Shown here: in pieces, positions 270 through 19,180 of the stretch
How positions within the stretch are numbered: the first letter of the stretch is position 1
Layout of the letters: each line of letters opens with the position of its first letter
From: Thermaerobacter sp. FW80
Lineage (GTDB): Bacteria; Bacillota; Sulfobacillia; Thermaerobacterales; Thermaerobacteraceae
Length of the DNA stretch: 64,000 nt
Reading direction: 5' to 3'
Assembly: GCF_004634385.1 (NCBI RefSeq)
Contig: NZ_CP037895.1
Coordinates: forward strand, 657,245-721,244
Made by a program: the position numbers and the translations under genes
The notes under the pieces: model-generated
The model's input: the letters and a program-made list of their open reading frames with translations, nothing else
Database searches by the model: none
Told to the model about the DNA's origin: nothing

Positions 270-2906
270 TCAGCGCACCACCACGTTGACCAGGCGTCCG
301 GGCACCGTGATCACCCGAGCGACGACCTTGCCGTCGATCCACTCCTTGACGCGCGGGCTCGCCAGCGCCCGCTGGCGAAGGGCCTCCTCGTCCAGATCGG
401 CGGGCACGCGCAGCCGATCGCGCACCTTGCCGTTGACCTGGACGACGATCTCCACCGTCCCCGCTTGTAGCACCGCAGGATCCCAGGTCGGCCAGGGCTG
501 CCGGTGCACGCTGCCCCGCGCGGCGCGCCAGCCCAGCACCTCCCACGCCTCCTCGGCCAGGAAGGGGGCGAAGGGCGCCAGCATGCGCAGCAGTCGGTCC
601 AGGGCCGCCGCCAGCAGATCGGGCCGCTGCGCGGCCGGTTCGACCCGGTCCCGGTAGCCGTAGATGGCGTTGACCAGCTCCATCAAGGCCGCCACCGCCG
701 TGTTGTACTGCATCCGCTCGGCGATGTCCGTGGTCACGCGGGCGACGGCCCGGTGCACCTCCCGCCACAGGCTCCGCTCGGCCTCGCCCCAGCCGTCCAT
801 GGTCGGCTGGATCTCGCCCGCGGGCGCCCCGGGGGCGGACGGCCCCTGCTGCGCCGGCCGATCGCCCCCGGCGCCGGCGGCCGCCCCGCCGTCCCCGGGC
901 GCCGGTCCGGTCGTCGCCACCGCCCCCTCGCGGGCCGCGGCCACCTGGCCGGCCGCGCTCCGGATCGCATCCGCGCAGCCCGCCACCAGACGCCAGACGC
1001 GCTGGACGAACCGGGCCGCGCCCTCGATGCCGTGCTCCGACCACTCCAGGTCGCGCTCGGGCGGCGCCGCGAACAGGATGAAGAGGCGCGTGGCGTCGGC
1101 GCCGTACTCCTCGAGGATGTCCTCGGGGCTGACCACGTTCCCCTTGGACTTCGACATCTTGGCGCCGTCCTTGATCACCATGCCCTGGGTCAGGAGGCGC
1201 TTGAAGGGCTCGGGGCTCGGCACCAACCCCTCGTCGTAGAGCACCTTGGTGATGAACCGGGAGTAGAGCAGGTGCAGCACGGCGTGCTCGATGCCGCCGA
1301 TGTACTGGTCGACCGGCAGCCAGTAGAACACCTTCTCCCGGTCGAAGGGCTGGTGTTCGTCCCGAGGCGACGTGTAGCGGTAGTAGTACCACGACGAATC
1401 CACGAAGGTGTCCATGGTGTCCGTCTCCCGCCGCGCCGGCCCCCCGCAGGAGGGGCAGCGGGTGCGGACGAAGGACTCGGAGGTCGCCAGCGGCGACGCC
1501 CCCACCTCGAAGCGCACGTCGTCCGGCAACAGGACCGGGAGCTGATCCTCGGGCACCGGCACGGTGCCGCAGCGATCGCAGTAGACGATGGGGATCGGCG
1601 CGCCCCAGTACCGCTGGCGGGAGATCAGCCAGTCCCGCAGCCGGTAGTTGACGGTGCGGCGACCGATGCCCTGGCGCTCGAAGTCCTCGGCCATCCGACG
1701 GTACGCCTCGCGGCTGTCCATGCCGTCGTAGGGTCCGGAGTGGATCATGCGGCCGGGGCCCGTGTACGCCTGGGACAGTCGGTCGCCGTCGGCCGGCACC
1801 CCCTCGCCCTGGATCACCACCCGGACGGGCAGCCCGTATTGACGGGCGAAGGCGAAGTCGCGCTCGTCGTGGGCGGGCACGGCCTGGATCGCCCCGGTGC
1901 CGTAGTCCATCAACACGTAGTTCGCCGTCCAGATGGGGATCGTCTCGCCGGTGACCGGGTTCTTGGCGTACGCGCCGGTGAAGACGCCCTCCTTGGCGTC
2001 CACCGCCTCGGCGCGATCGCGGACCGTCAGGCGCGTGACCCGCTGGACGAAGGCGCGCACCGCCTCCTCCTGCTCCGTCCCCCGGGCCAGCTCCAGCGTC
2101 AGCGGGTGGTCCGGCGCCAGCACCATGAAGGTCGCGCCGTAGATCGTGTCGTGGCGCGTGGTGAAGACCGTCAGCTTCTGGTCCCGGCCCACGATGGGGA
2201 AGTCCAGCTCCATGCCCTCGCTCCGGCCGATCCAGTTGCGCTGCATGAGCTTGACCCGCTCCGGCCAGCCCTCCAAGAGATCCAGGTCGCGGAGCAGGCG
2301 GTCGGCGTAGGCGGTGATCTTGAAGAACCACTGCTCCAGCTCCCGCTTCTCCACGGGCGTGCCGCAGCGCCAGCAGGAACCGTCCTCCACCTGCTCGTTG
2401 GCCAGCACCGTGGCGCAGCGCGGACACCAGTTGACCGGCGCCTTCTTGCGCTCCGCCAAGCCGCGGCGGTAGAGCAGCAGGAACAGCCACTGGGTCCACT
2501 TGTAGTAGCCCGGGTGGGAGCAGGCGATCTCCCGCCGCCAGTCGTAGCTCAGCCCGAGCCGCTGCATCTGCTCGCGCATGGCGGCGATGTTGGCGTTGGT
2601 CCACTCGGCCGGGTGGGTCTTGTTGGCGATGGCGGCGTTCTCCGCGGGCAACCCGAAGGAGTCCCAACCCATCGGGTAGAGGACGTTGTAGCCGCGCATG
2701 CGGTGGAACCGGGCCGTGGCGTCGCCGATGGAGTAGTTGCGCACGTGGCCCATGTGGAGCCTGCCCGACGGGTACGGGTACATCTCGAGGCAGTAGAACT
2801 TCGGCCGGGACGGATCGACCTCCGCGTGGTAGAGGCCCTCCTCCGCCCAGCGTCGCCGCCACTTCTTCTCCACGGCATGGAAGTTGTACCGGTCGTCGAC
2901 GGCCAT
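270..2906 (-). CDS. leuS: Leucyl-tRNA synthetase
   Basis: Charges tRNA-Leu with leucine in the cytoplasm. The 878-residue class I synthetase shows HMGH at 51-54 and KMSKS at 583-587, with the CxxC pairs of the zinc-binding insertion near 155-180 and the editing (CP1) region between. The ATG at 2906 has an AGAGGAGG ribosome binding site; the reading frame stays open upstream, but that part runs through the T-box leader and tRNA-Ala. Residues about 650-695, in the anticodon-binding part, are an Ala/Gly/Pro-rich insertion not expected in the family and probably disordered. The gene is controlled by a T-box leader. It ends the conserved block that starts at valS, directly after rsfS. Confidence 0.97.
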   Translation of the reverse strand: MAVDDRYNFHAVEKKWRRRWAEEGLYHAEVDPSRPKFYCLEMYPYPSGRLHMGHVRNYSIGDATARFHRMRGYNVLYPMGWDSFGLPAENAAIANKTHPAEWTNANIAAMREQMQRLGLSYDWRREIACSHPGYYKWTQWLFLLLYRRGLAERKKAPVNWCPRCATVLANEQVEDGSCWRCGTPVEKRELEQWFFKITAYADRLLRDLDLLEGWPERVKLMQRNWIGRSEGMELDFPIVGRDQKLTVFTTRHDTIYGATFMVLAPDHPLTLELARGTEQEEAVRAFVQRVTRLTVRDRAEAVDAKEGVFTGAYAKNPVTGETIPIWTANYVLMDYGTGAIQAVPAHDERDFAFARQYGLPVRVVIQGEGVPADGDRLSQAYTGPGRMIHSGPYDGMDSREAYRRMAEDFERQGIGRRTVNYRLRDWLISRQRYWGAPIPIVYCDRCGTVPVPEDQLPVLLPDDVRFEVGASPLATSESFVRTRCPSCGGPARRETDTMDTFVDSSWYYYRYTSPRDEHQPFDREKVFYWLPVDQYIGGIEHAVLHLLYSRFITKVLYDEGLVPSPEPFKRLLTQGMVIKDGAKMSKSKGNVVSPEDILEEYGADATRLFILFAAPPERDLEWSEHGIEGAARFVQRVWRLVAGCADAIRSAAGQVAAAREGAVATTGPAPGDGGAAAGAGGDRPAQQGPSAPGAPAGEIQPTMDGWGEAERSLWREVHRAVARVTTDIAERMQYNTAVAALMELVNAIYGYRDRVEPAAQRPDLLAAALDRLLRMLAPFAPFLAEEAWEVLGWRAARGSVHRQPWPTWDPAVLQAGTVEIVVQVNGKVRDRLRVPADLDEEALRQRALASPRVKEWIDGKVVARVITVPGRLVNVVVR

Positions 2907-3009
2907 GGCCGCTGCCTCCTCTGCCGACGGGGTCCCGCGTCCCCGGGGCCGTGGGTCCGGCACGGCGCCCCGCCCCGGCGCCGGGGCGCGGTCCGATGGC
3001 GACCGCCTC

Positions 3010-3360
3010 GGCGCCATAACGCCGGGAGCCTCCCGTCCCAAGGGACGGGAGGCTCCCGCGGTACCACCCTTCTTGATCAGTGTGGAGCGGATGGGACTCG
3101 AACCCACGACCTCGTCAATGCCATTGACGCGCTCTCCCAACTGAGCTACCGCCCCACGTACCGATCCCCTCGAACCCTTAACGCGGGTCACGTCGCCGGC
3201 TCCGGCGTCGGCCCGTGGGCCTCCGCCTTCGCCGGCGCGGCTCCCGGGCGAGTTCCCCTGCTGCGCACCGCCGGTTCGCACCACCACCGGCTCTCTGCGG
3301 GCCGCCGGCAGGGTACTGCTCCCGTTCCACGCCTTTGCCGGATCGACTTGTCGAACCGCG
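3010..3360 (-). promoter_or_regulatory. leuS T-box leader interrupted by tRNA-Ala
   Basis: Stem I features run from about 3340 to 3230: an AGTA motif, AGAGAG at 3296-3291, a distal-loop-like GGTGCGAACC, then a specifier loop reading GAA-CTC-GCC with the Leu codon CTC at 3252-3250. The T-box core AGGGTGGTACCGCG lies at 3069-3056; its TGGT would pair with a tRNA ending ACCA. A 16-bp perfect terminator-like hairpin (about 3055-3022) follows, with no strong U-tract. A complete tRNA-Ala gene (3083-3155) lies between the two halves. It is flanked by GATCGGT and ACTGATC, which can form a 7-bp helix (one G-U) around it. The valS leader has the same parts without a tRNA. Confidence 0.85.
3083..3155 (-). 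tRNA. tRNA-Ala(GGC)
   Basis: A 73-base cloverleaf with a 7-bp acceptor stem (one G-U), the D-arm GCTC/GAGC, anticodon stem CGTCA/TGACG with loop ATGGCAT (anticodon GGC, with the A32-U38 pair typical of tRNA-Ala), and T-arm GTGGG TTCGAGT CCCAT. The discriminator is A; CCA is not encoded. No promoter of its own is visible between the T-box specifier and the tRNA, so it should be transcribed from the leuS leader promoter. Confidence 0.93.
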
Positions 3361-3366
3361 TAGCCC

Positions 3367-3396
3367 ATTATAGGGAGGGCCCGCCGGGGGTGTCAA
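3367..3396 (-). promoter_or_regulatory. leuS T-box promoter
   Basis: Perfect sigma-A boxes on the minus strand: TTGACA (3396-3391), an 18-base spacer and TATAAT (3372-3367). Transcription should start near 3360, just ahead of T-box stem I, about 455 bases before the leuS start codon. It lies between rsfS and leuS. Confidence 0.92.
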
Positions 3397-3433
3397 GGCG
3401 ACCACCCCCGCCGCCGCACGGCCACCCCTGCCC

Positions 3434-3799
3434 TCAGCTCTCCGGCAGCGACTCCAGCTCCAGCCGGCGCGCGTCGGCCCAGAGCCGCTCGAGGCCGTAG
3501 TACTCGCGCTCCGCCGCCAGGAAGATGTGCAGCACCACGTCGTCGAAGTCCAGCAACACCCAGCGCGCCGAATCGTAGCCCTCCCGGTGGGAGGGCGCCC
3601 ATCCTTGCTCCCCGACCTCCTCCTCCACGCCGTCGGCGATGGCGCGCACGTGGATCGGGTTCTGGCCATGGCAGATGACGAAGTAGTCGGCGATCAGGGT
3701 CAGGCCCTGCATGTCGAGGATGACCACGTCCGCCGCCTTCTTGGCCTCGGCCGCGCGCGCGATGGCCACCGCCTTCTCCCGGCTGGTCAACCGTCCCAT
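3434..3799 (-). CDS. rsfS: Ribosomal silencing factor RsfS
   Basis: RsfS/YbeB-family protein that binds ribosomal protein L14 and blocks subunit joining when nutrients are low. The 121 residues cover the whole family: the VVILDMQGLTLIADYFVIC core, a WVLLDFDDVVLHIF segment near 80-95 and a short C-terminal helix. The ATG at 3799 sits only a base or two after GGGGAGGG. A TTG three codons later has the better-spaced ribosome binding site and may be the true start (118 residues). It follows the LCP gene and yqeK, the usual Firmicute order, and the leuS promoter starts just beyond its stop. Confidence 0.93.
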   Translation of the reverse strand: MGRLTSREKAVAIARAAEAKKAADVVILDMQGLTLIADYFVICHGQNPIHVRAIADGVEEEVGEQGWAPSHREGYDSARWVLLDFDDVVLHIFLAAEREYYGLERLWADARRLELESLPES

Positions 3800-10428: not shown

Positions 10429-10458
10429 ATTCTAGTCGCCGCCGCCCGGGGGTGTCAA
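10429..10458 (-). promoter_or_regulatory. rplU operon promoter
   Basis: Sigma-A boxes on the minus strand: TTGACA (10458-10453), an 18-base spacer and TAGAAT (10434-10429). Transcription should start near 10422 and read rplU, prp and rpmA. The spacer sequence is very like that of the leuS promoter. Confidence 0.88.
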
Positions 10459-10551
10459 GGCGACGGAGCCCGGCGCTGCGGCCCCGGGACCGGGCCGGCG
10501 CCGCGGCACGGCGCGGCGGCCGCGGACCGGGCCGCCCGCGCCCCGCGACGG

Positions 10552-18205: not shown

Positions 18206-19180
18206 CTACCCCGCGGTTCGCCGCGCCGCCGTCCGCTGCCAGAACCAGCGGGCGGGGTCGAAGGGCTCGATCACCACCCGCCCGTCCCGCACGTAGGCGA
18301 TCTCCGGCCCGGCCGCCGGCGCGACGGACGGCCGTCCGCCGGTCCCCGGCGGCTCCTCGTCGGGGGCCCGGCCGATCCAGCGGGCGATGCGCAGCTGGAT
18401 GGGCTCCATGGCCAGCGACGCCACCACCGCGCCGGCCTCGCCCCGGAATCCGGCATGGACGATGCCCCTCAGCCGGCCGAACACCACCACGTCGCCGGCC
18501 GCCAGGACCTCGGCCCCGGGGTTGACGTCGCCCAGGATCACCACGTCCCCGTCGTAGACCAGGCGGTGGCCGGAGCGCAGGGTTCGGCGCACCACCACCC
18601 CCGGCCGGGGCCGACCGGCATCGGCGGACGAACCGGCTCCCCTGCCCGCGCCGACGGCCGGCGCCTCCGCCGCCGGGCCGGCCGCGGCGGGCGGGGCCGC
18701 CGTCTCCCGGCGGTTCCGCCGCCGGGACCGCCGCCGGCCCGGCTCCGGGGCCGGGCCGGCGGCCTGCGCAGCGCCCCCAGGGGTTGGCGCCCCCGGCTCC
18801 GGCGGTCCCTCCCGGGCCCCGTCCCGGTGCGCCCCGGGGTCGGGTGCGGCCCACCACGCCGGACGCCGATCGCCGTCCAGGGGCAGGGGCGACCGCGCGT
18901 CCACGGCCCGCGCGTCCACCCGTGCGTCCACGTGTTCCGTGATCACGTGCAGCAGCCGCGCCCCGCCGAACCGGCTGACCAGGGCCTCGATGGCCATCAC
19001 CTGGTCGGCGGTGAGCTGGAGGCGGCCCGTGTCCAGCACCAGCGCCCGGCCCTCCCGCAAGGCGGGGTCGGCCGCCAGCATGCGCTCCAGCGCAGCGCAC
19101 AGGCTGGGGAAGTCGAGGTCGCCGGGCAGGGTGACGACCACCTCGTCCCCCGTCCGCGTCACCTGCGGCGCTCCCTTCAC
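18206..19180 (-). CDS. minC: Septum site-determining protein MinC
   Basis: FtsZ-assembly inhibitor delivered by MinD. The N-terminal FtsZ-binding domain covers about 1-90. A low-complexity linker (about 95-190, Pro/Gly/Arg-rich and much longer than usual) leads to the C-terminal beta-helix domain (about 190-300) with GDVVILGDVNPGAEVLAAGD and VVFGRLRGIVHAG. The GTG at 19180 follows a long AAGGGGGGGG tract that can serve as ribosome binding site; no better start is seen. A GGACGAACCGG motif lies in the linker (18626-18636) and another in the spacer before minD (18049-18059). Confidence 0.92.
   Translation of the reverse strand: MKGAPQVTRTGDEVVVTLPGDLDFPSLCAALERMLAADPALREGRALVLDTGRLQLTADQVMAIEALVSRFGGARLLHVITEHVDARVDARAVDARSPLPLDGDRRPAWWAAPDPGAHRDGAREGPPEPGAPTPGGAAQAAGPAPEPGRRRSRRRNRRETAAPPAAAGPAAEAPAVGAGRGAGSSADAGRPRPGVVVRRTLRSGHRLVYDGDVVILGDVNPGAEVLAAGDVVVFGRLRGIVHAGFRGEAGAVVASLAMEPIQLRIARWIGRAPDEEPPGTGGRPSVAPAAGPEIAYVRDGRVVIEPFDPARWFWQRTAARRTAG

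Follow-up and report, generated by a model that had tools for sequence, protein, structure and literature searches.

The analysed stretch of DNA (the window) comprises 64,000 nt of the Thermaerobacter sp. FW80 genome; coordinates are positions in the window, and all elements of the leuS leader lie on its minus strand. The leucyl-tRNA synthetase gene leuS (270–2906, −) starts with the ATG at 2906 and encodes 878 aa, and the gene upstream of the leader (3434–3799, −) encodes a protein resembling the ribosome silencing factor RsfS, as identified by eye in its translation. A sigma-A type promoter, TTGACA-N18-TATAAT (3367–3396, −), matched at 12 of 12 positions, with transcription expected to start at about 3360 (−). 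It was the only promoter-like site in 2880–3480, where shuffled sequences gave a mean of 0.0. Downstream of it, a match to the whole T-box model RF00230 (3038–3338, −) covered stem I, stem II, the pseudoknot region, stem III and the antiterminator. Within this match were found a CTC specifier for leucine (3250–3252, −), the string GAGGG (3167–3171, −), the 5′ arm of stem III, GATCGGT (3160–3166, −), a complete tRNA-Ala(GGC) in the stem III loop (3083–3155, −), the 3′ arm ACTGATC (3075–3081, −), an AA directly 3′ of stem III (3073–3074, −), and the T-box core AGGGTGGTACCGCGGGAG (3053–3070, −), assigned as the 5′ half of the antiterminator from the sequence and the RF00230 alignment. A 16-bp competing hairpin with arms 3057–3042 and 3039–3024 lies at the terminator position (3024–3057, −). 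All parts named in the earlier note on this DNA, from the promoter, stem I motifs and Leu CTC specifier through the tRNA cloverleaf to the antiterminator core, hairpin and leuS, were present.

A covariance search restricted to the leader (cmscan) aligned positions 3338–3038 (−) with positions 1–219 of RF00230 at 88.2 bits (E = 6.8e-20). Because this score is about 5 bits below the curated cut-off of 93 bits, the T-box of the window is missed by a default Rfam scan. The Rfam tRNA model matched as well, at 63.3 bits, so that the pair of matches proposed as a check in the earlier note was obtained, and stem I was matched both in the window and in relatives. All 13 relatives' leaders with the insert that were tested matched RF00230 end to end, and scores above the cut-off, up to 120.8 bits, occurred among them. 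The specifier was aligned in a GAA-CUC context, which also occurs in relatives, and fits the downstream leuS; the expected ligand for CUC, tRNA-Leu(GAG), is encoded by a single gene in the genome. Both the UGGN of the T-box core and the RRRxG-stem III-AA motif are present. In an unconstrained fold of the leader, stem III and the acceptor, anticodon and T stems had pair probabilities of approximately 0.77–1.0 and the terminator hairpin was near 1, with about 1 for 15 of the 16 pairs. The region is a real full-length T-box leader with a Leu CUC specifier.

The RF00230 alignment paired GATCGGT with ACTGATC as stem III (pair probability 0.81–0.93 for the 5′ arm, and likewise supported by pair probabilities for the 3′ arm), and the tRNA appeared as a 78-nt insert in the stem III loop. 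The tRNA had been thought to replace the loop of a linker stem; the loop of a T-box stem is indeed replaced, and the stem in question proved to be stem III. According to PMC7583486 and PMC7778990, stem III belongs to the aminoacylation-sensing "discriminator", which has the motif 5′-RRRxG-stem III-AA-3′, and the former describes this stem as variable among T-boxes. In most ordinary T-boxes measured, the stem III loop was 3 to 13 nt long. The RRRxG purine string, a motif taken from PMC7583486, was present in 88% of the relatives' leaders, and the window retains GAGGG before and AA after stem III around the tRNA. Since the loop of stem III is variable, an insert at this place leaves the sensing elements on both sides intact.

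The two arms have evolved together. Stem III contained a mean of 6.3 uninterrupted pairs in register with the AA, compared to 3.7 when arms were swapped between species (sd 0.16, 300 shuffles, composition kept), a type of count that is inflated by relatedness of the species. The first three positions paired in 49–50 of 50 distinct arm pairs, with A-U, G-C, U-A, C-G and G-U all occurring there, and compensatory changes across species were found at pairs 1–7, indicating that such changes preserve the helix enclosing the tRNA. The duplex energy of the flanks, taken as a set, differed significantly from that of swapped arms (mean −10.1 vs. −7.0 kcal/mol, sd 0.23); taken singly, only 11% of the loci ranked in the best 5% of their own comparisons, a consequence of arms being shared among related species.

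The embedded tRNA was recognised by ARAGORN as well as by the Rfam covariance match. It carries the identity pair G3:U70, and its CCA end is not encoded. Among the 46 typed tRNA genes matched in the genome it is the only Ala-GGC, and GCC is the main alanine codon of leuS (52 of 98 Ala codons). Being the sole copy, it is likely needed by the genome. G3:U70 was kept in all 87 distinct embedded instances. Exactly one tRNA-Ala(GGC) gene was found in 27 of the 28 class genomes with the embedded arrangement, using a strict anticodon pattern that overlooks some Ala-GGC genes, e.g., in Sphaerobacter; in most cases the genome thus apparently has no tRNA-Ala(GGC) besides the embedded gene.

Comparison with other genomes showed that the arrangement is widely conserved, a point missed in the earlier note. 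When 84,980 species genomes were scanned for a tRNA T-arm 8–38 nt before a T-box core, at least 120 stretches were returned. Among the matches listed, a tRNA-Ala(GGC) called by ARAGORN overlapped the match at 62 of 80 loci; one further locus (L091) was cut by the locus end, and the remaining listed matches were attributed to chance. The arrangement thus occurs at no fewer than 62 loci in at least six phyla, the tRNA always being Ala(GGC) among the matches listed, and within the same set no tRNA was embedded in the leader of any T-box gene other than leuS. In nearly all of these listed loci, leuS came next or was separated from the leader by one or two genes, among them an IlvE-like aminotransferase and an acyl-CoA synthetase-like gene; a few end before the position of leuS, and wherever the sequence suffices, leuS or a leuS operon was found. 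The phylum names in the records were Bacillota, Chloroflexota, Thermomicrobiota, Armatimonadota, Coprothermobacterota and Caldisericota; single MAGs named Actinomycetota and Pseudomonadota also carried the arrangement, and these names may be wrong. Carriers among isolates included Syntrophomonas wolfei subsp. methylbutyratica, S. palmitatica, Thermosyntropha lipolytica, Desulfofundulus thermosubterraneus and D. thermobenzoicus. In the phylum of the window, a T-arm followed by a short gap and a T-box core was detected in 61 of 398 genomes, and the reversed pattern in none, which puts the pattern far above chance. The arrangement is a genuine T-box riboswitch variant with a wide distribution. 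At one locus (L335), the embedded-tRNA leader is followed by a sequence that looks, by eye, like a group II intron, and leuS was not detected within the 2.3 kb locus.

A search with wider gaps yielded further Ala(GGC) cases with a longer stem III; for tRNAs elsewhere in T-box leaders, it gave one chance match (L336) beyond Ala(GGC). Candidates with tRNA-Ser and tRNA-Gly (L117 and L132) were rejected as embedded cases, being neither T-box-like nor followed by leuS. Five Chloroflexota leaders (L105, L146, L149, L150 and L160) carry two tRNA-Ala genes, one with anticodon CGC directly behind the −10 box, 5′ of stem I, and one with GGC inside stem III. Their layout suggests that these leaders behave as a tRNA-Ala operon.

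Within the class to which the window belongs, 70 leuS upstream regions were surveyed and their states counted. A T-box with embedded tRNA-Ala(GGC) was found in 28 and a T-box core without tRNA in 20; neither was present in another 20, two of which are truncated. The remaining two (L223 in G040 and L240 in G056) retain the promoter, the tRNA-Ala(GGC) and the hairpin; stem I is lost, the T-box core is degenerate, and no RF00230 match was obtained in either leader. In these genomes, the tRNA has thus been retained when sensing was lost. Two other leaders with an embedded tRNA (L266 and L115) have a shortened stem I whose distal part is seemingly missing. In a quick LeuS tree, carriers occupied deep branches of several phyla, and at least five state changes were counted among the sampled rows, with non-carriers drawn from the class of the window and negatives outside this class under-sampled. 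The recurrence of the same isoacceptor in the same stem, always before leuS or a leuS operon, argues for a single origin followed by descent, transfer and loss, and the spread among the sampled rows fits an ancient origin as well as transfer. One MAG named Thermaerobacter marianensis (L126) has a LeuS far from the genus of the window in this tree, and its name may be wrong.

Below 60% GC, 44 of the 46 hairpin-bearing leaders have a U-run after the hairpin; at or above 60% GC, this holds for 14 of 26 leaders. No U-run terminator was found after the 16-bp hairpin of the window, which comes from a high-GC genome, and this makes termination at the site less certain than it is in relatives of low GC content. 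Transcription attenuation is likely for the family of embedded-tRNA leaders, as judged from these hairpins, and plausible for the leader of the window. In every case, the tRNA lies 5′ of the terminator position, and terminated and read-through transcripts consequently both contain it. This bears out the proposal that each transcript holds tRNA-Ala irrespective of read-through into leuS; a separate promoter that would isolate the tRNA was not found in 2880–3480. Approximately 59 nt separate the 3′ end of the tRNA from the end of the hairpin, a distance transcribed within seconds at usual bacterial speeds. The T-box decision should usually precede excision of the tRNA, since this interval is brief compared to the turnover of model pre-tRNAs by E. 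coli RNase P in vitro, at 0.025–0.26 per second (PMC9433436 Table 1).

The leader is probably best explained as a composite RNA, in which a Leu-specific T-box controlling leuS and the precursor of tRNA-Ala(GGC) are produced from one promoter. The tRNA gene would occupy the stem III loop as the only part of the discriminator with a freely variable loop. RNA polymerase starting at the single promoter would transcribe stems I and II, then the tRNA within stem III, and then the region of the antiterminator and terminator. Binding of uncharged tRNA-Leu(GAG) at the specifier would lead to read-through into leuS, and with charged tRNA-Leu the terminator would form; either outcome would leave an RNA holding the whole tRNA-Ala, presumably to be excised by RNase P together with RNase Z or, in genes with an encoded CCA, exonucleases. 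The supply of tRNA-Ala would then track a constitutive promoter, and leuS the charging of leucine. This reading is supported by the T-box and tRNA covariance matches, which interleave exactly at stem III, while the second tRNA-Ala in Chloroflexota, together with the loss of the sensor where the tRNA was kept, points to the leader as a transcription unit for tRNA-Ala. Several considerations count against it: the hairpin of the window has no U-run behind it, the stem III helix abutting the acceptor stem could slow RNase P, and the embedded tRNA could influence the folding or timing of the switch, an effect that the composite reading does not include.

An assembly or annotation artefact has next to no probability, given that three congeners, members of other families and isolates such as T. 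lipolytica all show this gene order; recurrence in dozens of independent genomes excludes an assembly join at the leader, and the comparison of related genomes suggested in the earlier note thus favoured a genuine locus. It is also very improbable that the T-box has decayed in the window genome, leaving simply a tRNA gene and a terminator before leuS. The score under the Rfam cut-off and the existence of decayed leaders in G040 and G056 would fit such a state, but stem I, specifier, purine string and T-box core are intact in the window, where they align end to end, and are kept in the congeners as well. A frozen accident is a possible, if somewhat unlikely, account: a tRNA gene landed in a permissive loop, became the sole copy and could then no longer be lost, with no benefit beyond the shared promoter. 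This is compatible with a composite RNA and differs from it only in the reason for retention. The variability of stem III (PMC7583486), the ordinary loop length of 3 to 13 nt, the sole-copy status of the embedded gene, and the same tRNA and same gene throughout, which suggest one origin, all speak in its favour. However, the deep LeuS branches in several phyla and the second tRNA-Ala added in Chloroflexota resemble repeated use as a tRNA unit rather than inertia.

A more active role of the tRNA in the switch appears unlikely. By cutting inside stem III, RNase P and RNase Z would detach the antiterminator from the specifier domain, so that the decision would become irreversible or the status of tRNA processing would act on leuS expression. 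Cuts at the tRNA ends would indeed sever both strands beside stem III, and the arrangement has been conserved across several phyla and not replaced by a separate tRNA gene. Against this, many leuS T-boxes have no tRNA, and the tRNA outlives the loss of sensing in G040 and G056. Pairing of the leader with the RCCA end slows RNase P (PMC9433436), but such pairing occurs equally at free-standing tRNA-Ala(GGC) genes. A special brake on RNase P by pairing of U-1/G-2 with A73/C74, which is common among embedded genes (GT in 50 of the 87), was accordingly rejected. Self-competition between the UGGN bulge and an ACCA end in the same RNA was also discarded as a general function, because only 58 of 87 instances encode ACCA and the window does not. 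That excision of the tRNA sets the time available for the T-box decision, and so couples alanine-tRNA supply, tRNA processing and leuS expression, is correspondingly doubtful.

Compared to known RF00230 leaders of leuS with a Leu specifier, the composite leader has the same stem I with GAA-CUC, stem II, RRRxG-stem III-AA motif, core, competing hairpin and downstream leuS, whereas the ordinary stem III loop of 3–13 nt is replaced by a whole tRNA gene for another amino acid. Where tRNA genes are co-transcribed with protein genes, as in the E. coli tRNA-tufB transcript, tRNA and mRNA are presumably separated by RNase P. One transcript likewise yields tRNA and mRNA there, but that tRNA stands beside the regulatory region, and here it lies inside the fold, between sensor and expression platform. 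tRNA-Ala is also joined with a T-box in the alaS leader of Clostridium acetobutylicum, where it is the ligand in trans (PMC4695836); in contrast, the tRNA-Ala studied here sits within a leader that senses leucine, whose specifier it does not fit. Translational T-boxes have reported insertions in stem III, which similarly show that this stem tolerates extra sequence, and a tRNA gene is not mentioned in the accessible parts of that source (PMC7583486). In agreement with the earlier note, which knew of no such case, no description of a tRNA gene inside a T-box leader was found in the accessible literature, with subscription papers mostly outside it; the parts available of the T-box database paper, the 2008 survey and the 2020 review contain none.

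If correct, the composite reading would define a widespread and apparently undescribed class of RNA that unites a riboswitch and a tRNA precursor in one transcript. A leader ending at the terminator, otherwise a waste product, would here supply an important tRNA, and this would explain why a genome can rely on a single tRNA gene inside a usually terminated leader. The link would escape annotation or tRNA-expression studies in which each tRNA gene is taken as a unit of its own. The composite reading also raises the questions of a competition in time between tRNA processing and the riboswitch decision and of how much longer the stem III loop of a T-box can become.

The valS leader in the window, described earlier as having the ordinary T-box layout, gave a match for the antiterminator half only (29540–29502, 21.9 bits), the rest of that layout being unsupported. 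No tRNA was found near any of the 19 other T-box matches listed for the window genome. ARAGORN called a tRNA-Gly at 10448–10544 (−) and a tRNA-Glu at 18670–18764 (+) in the window, both of unusual length and lacking Rfam support at the cut-off; they are probably false positives. Two T-box matches in G000 (C1:8562–8809 and C1:2930526–2930773) have identical scores, one towards each end of the main contig, which may reflect a duplication or an overlap of the contig ends.
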